Assembly: GCA_005776395.1 (NCBI GenBank)
Contig: SXPJ01000011.1
Span: 1-58,539, forward strand
DNA from: Bdellovibrionales bacterium
GTDB taxonomy: Bacteria > Bdellovibrionota > FAC87 > UBA2466
Reading direction: 5' to 3'
Length of the DNA: 58,539 nt
Part shown: positions 7,989-57,356 of the stretch, piece after piece
Layout of the letters: each line of letters begins with the position of its first letter
How positions within the stretch are numbered: position 1 is the first letter of the stretch
Made by a program: the position numbers and the translations under genes
The notes under the pieces: model-generated
Databases searched by the model: none
Told to the model about the DNA's origin: nothing
Seen by the model: the letters and a program-made list of their open reading frames with translations, nothing else

Positions 7989-8759
7989 TTATCTTCTCGC
8001 AAGAAGCCTTACTGCATCGTAAAGTTTTTTAGGTAGCTGATCAAAGGTTTCCACCTCAAGGCAAATCCCATTTCCATGGGTTGCCATAGTTTGAGAGGCC
8101 TCTAAATGGCTACCAGCCCCATGCAGATGTAACACCACGAGAAAATCATATTTTTTTGCGACCTCTATAGGATCTGTTCCTTCCGTCGTCCTCCCATCGG
8201 TAGCAATGAGCCCAATTTTCTTCTTACCCGCACCGAAATGTTTAAACTGATTTAACCCCTCTTCAAGCCCTAACGAGATATTGGTAAAACCTCTAGGTTG
8301 TGACTTTAAAAATTTGAGAACGGTGCTCTCTCTAGACTCTTCAACAGAAAGTTTTTTAATCACTTGAGCCTTAGAAGAAAAAACGATAACCGAAGCATCA
8401 CGAGCTTGAATCTCCAGCAACAAAACCGCGACCGCAATACTGGCTAAAAGATGTTTATCTCCAGACATCGAGGAACTTGCATCTATCATTGTGACACAGG
8501 TAAAGGGTTTTTCTTCAGTTATCTCCACCTGAAGGGTCTCGGGAGTCACCTCCTCTAAGATTGGATTTTCTTCAAGGGTCTCCTCAATTGCGATCTCTCC
8601 GAAAGGAACTCTCGCAAAACAATCTCTTTTCAAAACTTGAGGCCGAGAGGGATGGGCGATAACTTTTTTTGCATGGTCCAATACGAGCGAAACCAACTTT
8701 CTATCAGAGGCTTCATCCGATTGCGTTAAGCCGCTCCGATGAAAGTAGAGCTGTCTCAT
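7989..8759 (-). CDS. VWA domain protein, ChlD/CobT-like C-terminal part
   Basis: From ATG 8759 this encodes 256 residues dominated by a von Willebrand A domain. An intact MIDAS is visible: DASSSMS (DxSxS), FTNIS supplying Thr, and ATDGRT supplying Asp, so it should bind a metal ion. Its reading frame stays open upstream to 8891 with 44 further codons and no ATG, GTG or TTG, and ATG 8759 lacks a convincing ribosome binding site. The open part begins at the A10 tract ending the AAA+ gene. The likely main product is therefore a -1 frameshift fusion of about 574-585 residues (AAA+, linker with FFPPELSD, VWA), the architecture of magnesium/cobalt chelatase D subunits. Separate internal initiation at 8759 remains possible. 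Confidence 0.8.
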   Translation of the reverse strand: MRQLYFHRSGLTQSDEASDRKLVSLVLDHAKKVIAHPSRPQVLKRDCFARVPFGEIAIEETLEENPILEEVTPETLQVEITEEKPFTCVTMIDASSSMSGDKHLLASIAVAVLLLEIQARDASVIVFSSKAQVIKKLSVEESRESTVLKFLKSQPRGFTNISLGLEEGLNQFKHFGAGKKKIGLIATDGRTTEGTDPIEVAKKYDFLVVLHLHGAGSHLEASQTMATHGNGICLEVETFDQLPKKLYDAVRLLARR

Positions 8760-8884
8760 AAGATCCGTTTTAACATCGCCAACTCCCCCCTCTAAATCCT
8801 GAAATTCTTGCTGATCAGAAAGTTCGGGGGGGAAAAAGACTGGAATGACTTTAAGAGCAAGCCCTTCTAACCGGTTTTTAGGAT

Positions 8885-8902
8885 TTAATTCTTTTTTTTT
8901 TC
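8885..8902 (-). promoter_or_regulatory. Probable programmed -1 frameshift site (A10 slippery tract)
   Basis: On the minus strand the AAA+ frame reads GAA AAA AAA AAG AAT TAA. The A-AAA-AAG heptamer (8897-8891), the same as the E. coli dnaX slip site, is followed by one sense codon and the stop (8887-8885). Moving back one base puts the ribosome into GAA TTA AAT CCT, the frame that continues without a stop into the VWA domain. A weak 5-bp hairpin with a CTTG loop lies about 30 bases downstream; no clear Shine-Dalgarno stimulator is seen upstream. RNA polymerase slippage on the A10 run, or a one-base assembly error, would give the same fusion. Confidence 0.7.
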
Positions 8903-9745
8903 GCTAAGAGTGGGAAACTCATTGAGTGAAATAAGATTTAAAATTAAATCCTTTGGATCCTCTTCACTGGAAACAAGTTCAATTCGACTGGGCAAAGCCA
9001 TAAGAGCTGCAGATTCAAAATCAAGACCTGCTTCCATAAGTTTTGCCATAGAAATTGCAGCTCGAATGCTTGCACCACGTTTAATGCCGACATGGCTTCG
9101 AGTGGCTCGAATGAGATCTACCATTCGTTCTAGAAGATCGTTTTTAATCTTAGAGGAAACTTCCTGTTTTAAAATTACCAACTCCTCTTCTTTAGTTTGA
9201 TATTTTAAACAGATCATTTCAAAACGATCTAATAGAGCCTCAGAAAGAGCGTGAGTTGCTGTGAATTCTCTAGGGTTTTGAGTCGCAATTACACAGAATC
9301 CAGACTTTGCCTCAAGCTCACCCAGTTTCGGCATTACAATTCTTCGTTCATCCATTGCAGGCAATAAAATATTCTGAACTGCCTCTGGCATTCGGTTAAG
9401 TTCATTAATAAAAAGAATTTTTCCACCCTTCATGGCAGATACCAAAGGCCCTTCAATAAAAGACTCTTTAGAATACCCCTTCTTAAGAACGATAGGAGGA
9501 TCAAACCAACCCGTTAGTTTCTGTTCGGTATAACGGGTGTCCCCATCAACTCTTTCAAACTTTCTCTGAATCTCAGTTAAGATTTGTTGAACAAGAAAAG
9601 TTTTGCCAACTCCTACAGCCCCTTCAATTAAAATATTACGATGAAGGGCTATAACCTTTTTAAGCTGCTGAAGCTCTTTTTCTCGGCCAATGATTTTGGA
9701 TTTACTTGCCACGTTTTTTCTTTCTGGACATAGGCTCAGTTTCAC
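8885..9745 (-). CDS. MoxR/ChlI-like AAA+ ATPase
   Basis: A AAA+ ATPase of 275-286 residues resembling the chelatase small subunit ChlI/CobS and MoxR proteins. Walker A is GAVGVGKTF, Walker B is GGKILFINELNR (Asn-Glu rather than Asp-Glu), sensor 1 is CVIATQNPREF and an Arg-finger region is LLDRFEM. Such ATPases pair with VWA proteins to insert metal ions or remodel cofactor enzymes. The start is either GTG 9745 or GTG 9712; both lie inside the end of kamE, so translation is coupled to it. Zero-frame translation stops right after an A10 tract; a -1 shift there would append the VWA domain. Confidence 0.85.
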   Translation of the reverse strand: MKLSLCPERKNVASKSKIIGREKELQQLKKVIALHRNILIEGAVGVGKTFLVQQILTEIQRKFERVDGDTRYTEQKLTGWFDPPIVLKKGYSKESFIEGPLVSAMKGGKILFINELNRMPEAVQNILLPAMDERRIVMPKLGELEAKSGFCVIATQNPREFTATHALSEALLDRFEMICLKYQTKEEELVILKQEVSSKIKNDLLERMVDLIRATRSHVGIKRGASIRAAISMAKLMEAGLDFESAALMALPSRIELVSSEEDPKDLILNLISLNEFPTLSEKKKN

Positions 9746-10493
9746 CTTTATCCATCCGTTCTACCAACTTCTCATATAAGAAGTTTGCCACATCACTGGG
9801 CCTAGCACCAATAGTAAATCCAGCATCATACCCAAGTTCTAGCGCCATTTTATGGGTGACTCGGGGTCCACCTGCTACCAAAATAAACTTTCCTTCAAGG
9901 CCACGTTTTTTAAGCCTTGCCATCAGATCTCTCATATCCGAAAGATGGATATCTTTTTGAGAAACAACTTTAGAGAGCAATATGGCATCTGCTTTTTCTT
10001 TAACAGCTCTATCTATCAGCTCCTCAGTTGGAACTTGGCTCCCCATATTAACCGTTCTAAAACCTTTATAACGCTCGAGTCCAATATCACCGTCAAAACC
10101 CTTCATACTTAAAATGGCATCAAGCCCCACGGTATGAGCATCATAGCCGGTACAGGCTCCAACCACACGAATAGGTCTCTTCACATTAGCTAAAATCAGC
10201 CGATCAATCTCTTTGTAGCTTCGCTTCTCCCCCCCCAGATCCGGAACCTCAAGTTGAGTGTAATCGATCCCCTTGTCGGTTCTTGCAAAGACCACAAAGA
10301 GGGAATAGTTCACCCCAATTTTAGACATGTGGGCGATTTTTACATCAAAAAAACCCCAGTTTCTCACAAGTTGGGTCGCAGCTTCTCGAGCCTTGGCCGA
10401 AGGCTCTATAGGCAAAGTAAAACTAAGCTGAATAGCTCCATCATCGGTTGTGTCGCCGTAGGGTTTTAATGAAGTGAGATTAATCTCGGCCAT
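9702..10493 (-). CDS. kamE: D-lysine 5,6-aminomutase beta subunit
   Basis: A 263-residue beta subunit of the adenosylcobalamin- and PLP-dependent lysine 5,6-aminomutase, which moves the terminal amino group of D-lysine or beta-lysine from C6 to C5. The B12-binding motif ACTGYDAHTVGLDAI carries His120, the expected cobalt ligand, and Lys131 (SMKGFDG) lies eleven residues later, matching the spacing of cobalt His and PLP Lys in the characterised enzyme. The C-terminal Rossmann domain shows LLSKVVSQ and LVAGGPRV. An N-terminal dimerisation domain precedes it. The gene lies immediately downstream of kamD and overlaps the AAA+ gene. Confidence 0.95.
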   Translation of the reverse strand: MAEINLTSLKPYGDTTDDGAIQLSFTLPIEPSAKAREAATQLVRNWGFFDVKIAHMSKIGVNYSLFVVFARTDKGIDYTQLEVPDLGGEKRSYKEIDRLILANVKRPIRVVGACTGYDAHTVGLDAILSMKGFDGDIGLERYKGFRTVNMGSQVPTEELIDRAVKEKADAILLSKVVSQKDIHLSDMRDLMARLKKRGLEGKFILVAGGPRVTHKMALELGYDAGFTIGARPSDVANFLYEKLVERMDKGETEPMSRKKKRGK

Positions 10494-12076
10494 TAGATCT
10501 TACTCCCCATCATTTCAAAGAAAGGATTAAGATAACGACCTCTCTCCACTTCGAATACGCCATTGGCCCCTTTGCCCCCATCAATCGTACGACTTACGTC
10601 TGCAAATGTTCTCTTTTCAATCGCTTTGTAAATACCCATACGATCAATCTTTTCAAGTAATTTGACCGCATCGTCTAAAACATTTTGAGCAAAAGTTGCA
10701 ATAAAACCATCGGAACGATATCCAAACTCGTCCCCAAGCCCAACCGCTCCTCCCACCACATAGTTAGCATTTCGGATACTCACACTTCGATCTTGCAGAA
10801 ACGGAGTGTGTACCGCTTCGGTTAACATGCCTAGTAAAATGACCCCTTGATTGGTCATCGATCCAATTAAATTAAAAATCGTATCAATAGCATGGCTTGT
10901 AAAAATATCGCCCGATTTATATTTGGTATTGCACATGTACTTAAGTGGGGCTTCAGGGAAAATTTGCCGAGTCATCTGAGCTCTAGCGATCTCCATCAAA
11001 ATCACCTTCTCATAATTGGGATCCATCTCCATTGCATGACCTATCGACATCTGATTTTTCGCCATTCCCGCATTGAGAGCTGCCACTTCATTAATAAATT
11101 GAGAAGCTAAAACCTGATCTCCGCTTTTAGCCGCATCGGTGGTCTTCATATAGTTATCTTCACCGGTCATGATCCAAATCCCGCTTTTCGAACAGATCAA
11201 ACGAGAAAAATGCTGATCAATGAGAGTTCTTCTCATATTAATATCTCGGAACAAAATTCCATACATTGCATCATTAAGAAGACAATCAAGCCCTTCCATG
11301 GCCCCAAGAGCCGCAATCTCGGACATGCAAAGCCCAGAGCAATAATTGGTAAGACGAATATATCGATTTACCTCTTTACCCACTTCATCAAGGGCTTGTC
11401 TCATTACTCTAAAATTAGCTTGAGTCGCATAGGTGCCTCCAAACCCCTCAGTCGTGGTCCCTTGAGGCACATAATCCAGTAGGGATTGAGCCGTACTTCT
11501 AATAACTGCAATAACATCGGCCCCGTCCCGCACAGCACTTTTAGCTTGAATGACATCTTCAAAAATATTTCCAGTGGCCACAATCACATACTTCAAAGGC
11601 CGTTTTTCTTTGAGAGGATCCTTAATTTGTTTAGCGATTTGGATCCGTTCTTTGCGGTATCGAATTAAATTTTGATAAGAATCTTTAGCTAACTTGTGGG
11701 CCAGTGCTTTGACCTTTTTGGCATCTTGAGAGGCCAGAGATCCGATATCTATTTCCTCAATAAGCACCTTTTCTTGAAGGGCTGCAATATCAAAGCCCGT
11801 GGCGATCATGGCATTGGCAATCCAATAAAGAGCCCCTTCATGCAAACGATCGTGGCCCTTCACCTGGTCACAGATTAAATTGGCTATAGGAAAAAGCTGA
11901 TCTTGGTCATTTGGAGTTGCTTCATTAAAGCCCAATAATCTTAAAACGGCCCTTTCTGTTCCAACTGTGGAATTAACTTTTATCAGCTCAGCGACTTCAG
12001 AGCCGATTGATTTTGCAATCTCTCTACACCGAGCGATCTTTTTGGAGGATAATGGTATTGTTGAAGCATAACTCAT
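10493..12076 (-). CDS. kamD: D-lysine 5,6-aminomutase alpha subunit
   Basis: A 527-residue alpha subunit (540 if TTG 12115 is used) with the TIM barrel that holds substrate, PLP and the adenosyl group of B12. It carries long conserved blocks such as ATGNIFEDVIQAKSAVRDGA, the TTTEGFGGTYATQANFR region and MTGEDNYMKTTDA. I prefer ATG 12076 because homology to the family appears to begin just after it and the upstream TTG has no ribosome binding site. The last base of the gene overlaps kamE. No lysine 2,3-aminomutase or downstream lysine-fermentation genes occur in the window, and I saw no cobalamin riboswitch in the short leader. Confidence 0.93.
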   Translation of the reverse strand: MSYASTIPLSSKKIARCREIAKSIGSEVAELIKVNSTVGTERAVLRLLGFNEATPNDQDQLFPIANLICDQVKGHDRLHEGALYWIANAMIATGFDIAALQEKVLIEEIDIGSLASQDAKKVKALAHKLAKDSYQNLIRYRKERIQIAKQIKDPLKEKRPLKYVIVATGNIFEDVIQAKSAVRDGADVIAVIRSTAQSLLDYVPQGTTTEGFGGTYATQANFRVMRQALDEVGKEVNRYIRLTNYCSGLCMSEIAALGAMEGLDCLLNDAMYGILFRDINMRRTLIDQHFSRLICSKSGIWIMTGEDNYMKTTDAAKSGDQVLASQFINEVAALNAGMAKNQMSIGHAMEMDPNYEKVILMEIARAQMTRQIFPEAPLKYMCNTKYKSGDIFTSHAIDTIFNLIGSMTNQGVILLGMLTEAVHTPFLQDRSVSIRNANYVVGGAVGLGDEFGYRSDGFIATFAQNVLDDAVKLLEKIDRMGIYKAIEKRTFADVSRTIDGGKGANGVFEVERGRYLNPFFEMMGSKI

Positions 12077-12190
12077 AAGGCCATGATATTGCCTCAGCCG
12101 TGGGTAACTTTTCAAGCAAGATTAAATAGTTTTTGCCGTGGGTTTCATCCGGTAAAAACGTAACCTTCATGAAGCGAAGAGTCTCGGCTG

Positions 12191-13839: not shown

Positions 13840-14256
13840 GTGTCCTATGAAAATGTAGTGTTCTTGTCCCGGTTTGGGCAAATGAGTTCAAAAAAAAAGA
13901 AACAGATTCTTTACCTTTCAAATCAGGAGGAATCCCTTTCTCTTTTACAATCATTCCATGGTATCGCGGTTGAAAGCACCTCTTCGATACAGGCTCTCAA
14001 TATTCAGCTTTTTTCTTGGAAACGTTGGGACCTTGTCTTAATTGAATCCAATATTGAGTGGACAGATCCTAAAGAAACGGTGGCACTCATTAACGAGAAG
14101 CTCCAAATCCCAGTGACTTTAATAGACAGGCATTCCAATGAGGAAGAATCACTCTTTCGCTTAAAGGCTTTTTATGAAGCAGGTCTTCATGATTGCATAA
14201 AAGCCCCTCTTTGCCCTAAAGAACTCGCAGAGGTTTTTAAAACCTTAATACGATAA
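13840..14256 (+). CDS. Degenerate receiver-domain protein (pseudo-receiver)
   Basis: A 138-residue protein with the general layout of a CheY-like receiver: KKQILYLSNQEESLSLLQSF at the first strand, WDLVLIESNIEW where the phosphorylated Asp should be, and DCIKAPLCPKEL near the conserved Lys. The acceptor Asp position reads Glu in LIES, so phosphorylation is unlikely and the protein may be locked in one state. GTG 13840 is preferred because a GGGGGAG site lies six bases upstream; an in-frame TTG at 13825 overlaps that site. It is divergent from the OmpR-type regulator. Confidence 0.6.
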   Translation: MSYENVVFLSRFGQMSSKKKKQILYLSNQEESLSLLQSFHGIAVESTSSIQALNIQLFSWKRWDLVLIESNIEWTDPKETVALINEKLQIPVTLIDRHSNEEESLFRLKAFYEAGLHDCIKAPLCPKELAEVFKTLIR

Positions 14257-39004: not shown

Positions 39005-39661
39005 ATGAGCTCCGCCCATTTTTCTTCGAATATTATTGAGACTGAACTCAAATATGCGCTAACCAAAACTGAATATAATATTCTCAAAAAACAGCTAGAC
39101 TCTTTTCCTCACAAGACGCAACTACAAACAAATTACTATTTTGACTCTTTATCCTTAAGATTACAGACAAAGAAAATTGGCCTTAGAATCAGAACTTCGG
39201 GTTCCAATCCTCCAGTACTCACACTCAAATTTCCGAAACCCTCTAAAAAAAGCTTAATTACCTCTCTTAAAATACGATACGAGTACGAGGCCAATCTTTC
39301 CATTCGGGAGACAAAAGATATCCTTGCCGGGAAAAAAAGGATCTCTACTTTAAGCTCATTACCTCTTGAAATTTTAAAAACCAAAATTCAGCCTGCTCTA
39401 ATGAACAGACTTATAAACCTGGGTTCTCTTCAGACCCAAAGGACCCTCTATCGCTACTCTCATGGACAGGCTTTAGAACTTGATCAATCGAAGTTTTTTA
39501 ACCAGAAGTTCTATGAACTTGAAGTTGAAACCACTACCCCTAGAAAAACTGATCGACTCATAAAAAAAATATTCACAGAAAATGGAATCAAGTACCGCGC
39601 TGAGAAAATTTCCAAGCTAGAACGCTTTTTAAAAGAATGGAAAAAGCAAAAAAAAACCTGA
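39005..39661 (+). CDS. CYTH-domain triphosphatase-like protein
   Basis: A 218-residue CYTH/triphosphate tunnel enzyme. The ExExK signature is IETELKYAL at the N-terminus. Other tunnel residues are in NYYFDSLSLRL, IGLRIRTS, VLTLKFPK, YELEVETTT and the final KISKLERFL. Such enzymes hydrolyse inorganic triphosphate or thiamine triphosphate, or bind polyphosphate. The stop codon lies within a hairpin that ends transcription from the opposite strand. Confidence 0.85.
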   Translation: MSSAHFSSNIIETELKYALTKTEYNILKKQLDSFPHKTQLQTNYYFDSLSLRLQTKKIGLRIRTSGSNPPVLTLKFPKPSKKSLITSLKIRYEYEANLSIRETKDILAGKKRISTLSSLPLEILKTKIQPALMNRLINLGSLQTQRTLYRYSHGQALELDQSKFFNQKFYELEVETTTPRKTDRLIKKIFTENGIKYRAEKISKLERFLKEWKKQKKT

Positions 39662-42056: not shown

Positions 42057-42261
42057 GAACTGGTTTATCTCGATTTGCTATGTTCTTTCGATAAACCTGC
42101 GCGAGACCCAATTGCTAATTTGATGAAATAAAGTGCTGCAAAGGGAGATTGCATAAAAGTAATTGGATTTCGACGCCCTTATTTGTTTCTCTTTAACATT
42201 AAAAAACTGTCTTTTTTTTTCGAGGTTTATATTTTACAAATCCTAAACTTTCTAACTGATT

Positions 42262-56675: not shown

Positions 56676-57356
56676 ATGAAACAATTTACAATCATATCAA
56701 TTCTTTGTTTCACATTAAGCTATATTTCCATGGCAGCTAGCCCGTTATTAAAATATCAAAGTGAAGTCACTACAGTTGAAGGTAGTTTTTTTTTCACTCT
56801 TATGATCTCAACTGAAGCTCTTCCTTCTCAGGCTCTTGTCTCTAGAGTTACCACCACTATTCCTCACGATCCCGATCTCTTTTCAGATGATCAATATGCA
56901 TGTCAGGTGATAGCTCAATTTCCTCATGCGAAAATTCAAGTCGAAGTTAGAGACAGTTCCAATAAACTCATAGCTCAACAAACTATCAATAAAAGAATTT
57001 CCTTAAGTACTTTTGGCCCTGAGTCTGAACAGCCACCACAAACTTGTAATATACCCATGAGACTTGGAAAAACCCATTTAGATGATGCAGGAATGCATGG
57101 TTTTGATATCCGAATTAAACTTTCTAAAGGATTATTAATTTGGCACCCTTTCTCAGATGGATTGTGGTTAGATGGCGAAATCGGTGGCGATGGAATCAAT
57201 TATATTCAACTTTTATCTCTCTATCCAAGAAAAGATGGGCCAAGAAAAGATGATGATAAAAAAAGTTCTTGGCAATATTTTTTTCACTCTAACGATACAG
57301 GATTGTCTGACTATTATGGGACCGTTGTGATGAGCACTATGAAATTAGAGAAGTAA
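56676..57356 (+). CDS. Secreted protein of unknown function
   Basis: A 226-residue protein with a signal peptide (MKQFTIISILCFTLSYISMA). The mature part is beta-rich with two Cys (ACQVIAQ and QTCNIPM) and a WHPFSDGLWLDGEIGGDG loop. A basic-acidic stretch near the end reads PRKDGPRKDDDKKSS. I recognise no family. An upstream GGAGAC supports the start. It is not part of the M16 cluster. Confidence 0.65.
   Translation: MKQFTIISILCFTLSYISMAASPLLKYQSEVTTVEGSFFFTLMISTEALPSQALVSRVTTTIPHDPDLFSDDQYACQVIAQFPHAKIQVEVRDSSNKLIAQQTINKRISLSTFGPESEQPPQTCNIPMRLGKTHLDDAGMHGFDIRIKLSKGLLIWHPFSDGLWLDGEIGGDGINYIQLLSLYPRKDGPRKDDDKKSSWQYFFHSNDTGLSDYYGTVVMSTMKLEK

Follow-up and report, generated by a model that had tools for sequence, protein, structure and literature searches.

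A probable recoding site joins a MoxR-class AAA+ ATPase to a VWA domain beside lysine 5,6-aminomutase genes in Bdellovibrionota

The principle of one gene giving rise to two subunits is already known from chlD. In the frameshifted chlD genes described by Antonov and colleagues (PMC3711429, PMC9227772), a single gene carries an A-rich slippery site at which a -1 shift yields an AAA+-VWA medium subunit in addition to a short AAA+ subunit. Single-ORF fusions of the same kind exist too, and the slippery sites are usually accompanied by a downstream RNA structure (PMC9227772). A comparable scheme operates in dnaX, the source of the tau and gamma subunits, with an unrelated clamp-loader protein and function: the slip sequence is A_AAA_AAG in E. 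coli or A9 in Thermus, a stop codon lies right after it in two-ORF dnaX, and the slip sets the ratio of the two subunits. Other AAA+/VWA systems encode their partners as separate genes. The rubisco activase CbbQ/CbbO and the NorQ/NorD pair each combine a MoxR-class AAA+ ring with a VWA/MIDAS partner and each serve one metabolic enzyme. Finally, ATPase-type genes adjoin kamDE, the genes of the vitamin-B12-dependent lysine 5,6-aminomutase, in Acetoanaerobium. We take these accessory genes to be the KamB/KamC of clostridial lysine fermentation, which are P-loop and MutS-like proteins and include no AAA+/VWA member.

The locus described here lies in a window of 58,539 nucleotides (the whole stretch of DNA that was analyzed) from a Bdellovibrionales bacterium, contig SXPJ01000011.1. 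Like frameshifted chlD, it would give both a short AAA+ subunit and an AAA+-VWA fusion from one gene through a -1 shift at an A-rich site; unlike it, the ATPase is MoxR/NorQ-like, CobN/ChlH is absent, the usual neighbor is kamDE and a downstream RNA structure is generally missing. Similarly, the ring that we predict resembles those of CbbQ/CbbO and NorQ/NorD, but the VWA domain appears to be fused through recoding and the client is putative. With KamB/KamC the gene shares its place beside kamDE, of which it may be a functional counterpart. Our search of the open-access literature turned up no account of frameshifting in MoxR/VWA genes, and as far as the searched literature shows both the AAA+/VWA family and its genomic partner are apparently new.

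Two overlapping frames and a conserved run of adenines

On the minus strand of the window (12115-7989), the genes follow in the order kamD, kamE, AAA+ ATPase and VWA domain. The AAA+ frame (8885-9745) starts with a GTG, encodes 286 amino acids and ends ..SEKKKN*. Direct reading of its 3' end gives AGC GAA AAA AAA AAG AAT TAA, with a run of exactly ten A (8892-8901, T10 on the plus strand) and the zero-frame TAA stop (8885-8887) one codon past the slippery AAG. Within GAA AAA AAA AAG, both A_AAA_AAA and A_AAA_AAG stand in frame, the latter one codon before the stop. The VWA frame (7989-8903) is in -1 relative to the AAA+ frame, overlaps its 3' end and consists of a linker region of about 135 residues followed by the VWA domain. 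Its first ATG, GTG or TTG is the ATG at 8759, which leaves 44 codons between the run and the first possible start. The fused product is predicted at about 585 amino acids counted from the GTG, consistent with the 574-585 residues given in the preliminary description, whose reading of the AAA+ ending, of the heptamer and of the open, start-free linker was also borne out. Elsewhere in the window, further runs of nine A or T are located at 13890-13898, 39648-39656, 42212-42220 and 56786-56794. An Rfam search of the region returned one sub-threshold match, which we took as chance.

The AAA+ domain matched PF07728 (E 3e-25) as well as PF07726 and CbbQ_C, and its Walker A motif (GAVGVGKT, 9599-9622) is intact. 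The Walker B motif at window positions 9401-9409 reads INE, with Asn in place of the usual Asp; N114 and E115 are invariant, and NE instead of DE was seen in all 18 aligned rows. The VWA domain (8031-8495; PF00092, E 1.3e-7, residues 137-291 of the VWA frame) retains the MIDAS that had been noted from the letters alone: D141-x-S143-x-S145 (DASSS), T207 and D236 are invariant in 17 aligned sequences. The protein thus combines a MoxR-type AAA+ domain carrying Walker motifs with a VWA domain carrying a DxSxS-T-D MIDAS, as is typical of the MoxR class. In a profile comparison with the PDB, the closest AAA+ structures were Midasin, MoxR, NorQ and CbbQ, with CobS further off. The NCBIfam models for GvpN (74 bits, cut-off 267) and MadB (56 bits, cut-off 475) fell below threshold, and PADLOC defence models gave only weak AAA matches. 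AlphaFold models of both products, built for three rows, were too poor (pLDDT 40 and 47) and were discarded.

We then surveyed 369 genomes of the phylum with a profile of the AAA+ domain and found the AAA-VWA gene in 60 genomes from 36 genera. All five congeners and the carriers from other genera have the identical layout with ten or nine A, and so does a genome from another family of the order (G014); AAA+ identity to relatives outside the genus is 48-69%. Among loci readable in both frames, the VWA domain lies in the -1 frame in 55 of 57, across nine families, although these loci are kin by descent and mostly from draft or metagenome-assembled genomes, so that the counts are not independent. 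Of the 58 two-frame loci, 56 carry A9-A11 where the frames join (overall, A9 in 28, A10 in 27 and A11, A8 and A6 in one each), and nearly all have A_AAA_AAR in frame. The zero-frame stop follows 0-11 codons after the run, most commonly at a distance of one codon. The bases flanking the run and the residues around the KKK vary among loci, which indicates that the run itself is the conserved element. The -1 transition proposed between the two domains and the slip site that was to be looked for in relatives are both recovered across the family.

Some loci depart from this pattern. In L160 (G327), A8 places the VWA domain in +1, the sole such case, which may be an assembly error or a switch served by polymerase slippage only. 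In L168 (G339, contig C93), a second-copy AAA-VWA gene forms one in-frame ORF of 658 amino acids whose junction coincides precisely with an A8 run. A -1 slip at this run would yield the short AAA+ product, an inverted arrangement within the family, and together with the two-frame loci it parallels the pair of arrangements known for dnaX (PMC5009743). L099 (G343, 64% G+C) has only A6, in CGA AAA AAG ACC TGA, the bare A_AAA_AAG heptamer. A CCCGG-AAG-CCGGG hairpin lies 6 nt downstream, like the E. coli dnaX signal, and the locus does not belong to those with a fold unusually stable for its composition. L044 (G013, contig C128) carries an extra in-frame TGA inside the VWA domain, through decay, sequencing error or something else; an internal TGA is likewise present in the kdd of that genome.

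Probable slippage by the ribosome or by RNA polymerase

Runs of this length are very scarce outside the junction. The sense strands of these loci contain only 6 others of at least nine A in 482,665 nt (0.012 per kb), and the A9-A11 run is kept across 35-63% G+C. The G+C-rich members otherwise write lysine as AAG: within the gene but away from the junction, AAA encodes none of 14 lysines in L150 and 1 of 22 in L099, and each still keeps its A-run at the junction. The frame transition is thus conserved together with a slippery site, at least 7 nt long, that purifying selection maintains. Judged from these sequence comparisons, conserved recoding at the AAA+/VWA junction is very probable.

Which machinery slips is less clear. 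We give the ribosome about an even chance of being the main agent. Polymerase slippage, in which RNA polymerase slips on the A9-A10 run and produces mRNAs with extra or missing A, is a serious possibility that we place somewhat below even. Consistent with the polymerase, the run is held at 9-10 nt in 55 of 58 loci rather than at the 7 nt that a ribosome needs, and Thermus dnaX offers a precedent (PMC3711429, PMC5009743). The +1 locus with A8 could also be served by polymerase slippage and not by a -1 ribosomal shift. Moreover, signals that assist ribosomes were not enriched over the 58 loci. No general hairpin was found 4-44 nt downstream (mean z +0.15, controls -0.06 and +0.07), and an upstream Shine-Dalgarno (SD)-like element was present in 19% against 15% in controls, so that the combination of upstream SD-like element and downstream hairpin known from E. 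coli dnaX is not a feature of the set. Against the polymerase stands the rule of Antonov et al. that a shift in one direction only is ribosomal (PMC3711429), by which the -1 direction in 55 of 57 loci would be read as translational. The near-universal in-frame A_AAA_AAR and the single locus that keeps only A_AAA_AAG, with its hairpin, point the same way. Ribosomal and polymerase slippage may both act. The programmed shift that had been proposed is upheld as conserved recoding, with a ribosomal mechanism possible. In chlD reporters, the shifted product amounted to 63% with 11 A, 40% with 9 A and 10% with 7 A (PMC3711429), and by analogy a fair guess for the shifted share here would be tens of per cent.

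Association with lysine 5,6-aminomutase genes

The two genes upstream scored above the curated cut-offs of the KamD model (10493-12115, minus strand; NF052384, 706 bits, cut-off 600) and the KamE model (9702-10493, minus strand; NF052385, 316 bits, cut-off 280), which identifies the neighbors as lysine 5,6-aminomutase genes. The AAA-VWA gene directly follows kamE on the same fragment at 43 loci, with gaps of at most about 280 nt. It is present in 43 of 57 genomes with kamD and in 17 of 312 others (Fisher p 5e-30, uncorrected for phylogeny). Outside families f9 and f3, fully readable kamDE loci always have the AAA-VWA gene adjacent, the exceptions being loci cut by contig ends. Further lysine degradation genes accompany the locus: kdd was found upstream of kamD at about 30 fetched loci and kce near 4 AAA-VWA loci. 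In the genome of the window itself, kdd and kce are encoded elsewhere, which makes lysine degradation plausible in this host. In two genomes of the same family without kamD (G006 and G011), the AAA-VWA gene, kdd and kce are all absent; G007 lacks kamD and the AAA-VWA gene and retains kdd and kce.

Several lineages have one of the two components only. In family f9 (L047, L049, L050, L052, L055), kamDE occurs without the AAA-VWA gene in an apparent swap of accessory genes. In at least five of its loci, a MutS-like KamC homolog stands upstream of kamD, as in Acetoanaerobium, and takes the place of the AAA-VWA gene. In L040 (G008, contig C314), kamDE is gone, and the AAA-VWA gene follows immediately on the PilZ gene, which in the window stands ahead of kamD. 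In family f13 (L119, L120, L156, L157), the recoded gene sits beside an amino-acid permease and a large DUF455-domain protein, with no kamDE in the genome. Methylmalonyl-CoA mutase, another B12 mutase, was detected in nearly all carriers without kamDE, but close relatives devoid of the AAA-VWA gene have it too, as do 8 of 14 control genomes.

Lysine 5,6-aminomutase undergoes suicide inactivation, and an ATP-using activating protein (E2) was historically described for it (PMC3958899). An ATP-driven reactivase or maturation chaperone for KamDE, acting in the manner of CbbQO or NorQD, is the best-supported role for the AAA-VWA products, and we consider its chances nearly even. The gene may instead encode a general chaperone or one for another client, with the kamDE adjacency reflecting shared transcription or inheritance, an alternative that we hold possible while leaning against it. 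Consistent with another client, 17 of 60 carrier genomes lack kamDE, including all twelve f13 carriers, whose gene neighbors the permease and in places the DUF455 protein, and on the AAA+ tree the no-kam state is scattered, with some 8 label changes. Since G008 keeps the AAA-VWA gene without kamDE, KamDE cannot be the sole client. On the other hand, the tight adjacency to kamE holds in 43 of 60 carriers from several families, and kdd and kce are found nearby.

Remaining alternatives and implications

We next consider explanations that dispense with recoding or with the MoxR assignment. The VWA protein could be made independently, its translation re-initiating or beginning at a start that is weak or non-standard, just as conventional MoxR/VWA pairs are separate genes. 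The nearest relative found outside the phylum is such a pair, recovered in a plasmid search at 38% identity on the Rhodococcus plasmid NZ_AP023173.1 with a 45-nt gap; no relative was found among viral contigs. Start codons do occur near the junction at some loci, yet no start is conserved: a start codon with an SD-like element was found there at only 6 of 57 loci and at varying places, and the first start lies 421 nt after the run in L118. Such few, unfixed starts and long start-free stretches, of which the 44 codons of the window are another, make separate initiation unlikely. In addition, the linker is under coding selection from directly after the run. In the first 41 codons after it, pairwise substitution counts among six congeners, which are not independent, were 123:96:334 at -1 frame positions 1:2:3, compared with 126:38:320 in the AAA+ body and 174:71:332 in later VWA-frame codons. 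This third-position bias ahead of the first possible start indicates that the stretch is translated in the -1 frame. With a downstream frame that lacks its own start, a coding pattern in the linker, a conserved A-run and the in-frame fusion of L168, separate translation appears quite improbable.

The preliminary description had assigned the products to ChlI/CobS-like and ChlD-like chelatase subunits. A frameshifted cobalt or magnesium chelatase with small and medium subunits would follow the same one-gene, two-subunit logic, and CobS appears, at a greater distance, in the set of structural relatives. The chlD precedent invoked there is real (PMC9227772, PMC3711429), and the analogy holds for the principle. 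It fails for membership in the family: no BchI/ChlI appeared among AAA+ profile matches at E<=1e-5, and the BchD/ChlD and Cob-chelat-sub models (TIGR02031, TIGR02442), whose cut-offs are 500 and 779 bits, reached only 31 and 26 bits. No CobN/ChlH turned up in any of the 60 carrier genomes in a search that was positive in 5 control genomes, and we therefore rejected a chelatase identity as very unlikely. Judged by these matches and absences, the protein belongs with the MoxR-class AAA+/VWA machines, not with the chelatases.

Lastly, errors in sequencing or assembly, or decay of the gene, are barely credible and were rejected: homopolymers are error-prone and L044 has its extra TGA, but one phase recurs in 55 loci from independent assemblies with differing run flanks, both domains are conserved, and the ten A found independently in 5 of 5 congeners rule out that the run generally has eleven A in truth.

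Taken as a whole, a recoded two-product gene whose products may form a ring, with KamDE as a putative client, is the best explanation of the sequence data, and we consider it likely. A single gene, usually the third in a kamD-kamE operon, would give rise to two proteins through a slip at 9-10 A. Standard reading would produce the MoxR/NorQ-type AAA+ subunit, stopping just past the run, and a net -1 shift the AAA+-VWA fusion of about 585 residues. Both proteins would be made, and the short and long forms may co-assemble in one ATPase ring, where the slip would determine what proportion of the subunits carries a VWA domain. The VWA arm would hold the client, most often KamDE, which the ring would remodel or reactivate once suicide inactivation has occurred, much as CbbQO acts on rubisco and NorQD on NO reductase. 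More tentatively, and with greater doubt, the recoded gene could supply both subunits of a new ATP-dependent KamDE reactivase in which the length of the A-run sets the VWA share and which has replaced KamB/KamC in this phylum.

Conserved -1 recoding occurs in few cellular gene families, and the AAA-VWA gene brings in a further one that is apparently independent. Encoding a ring ATPase together with its VWA-bearing form in one gene would then be a solution used repeatedly, in chlD, in the present family and, by analogy, in dnaX. In all carrier genomes, gene-calling programs will probably break the AAA-VWA protein in two or cut it short. If the link to KamDE is true, the products would be candidates for an ATP-dependent factor that reactivates lysine 5,6-aminomutase.
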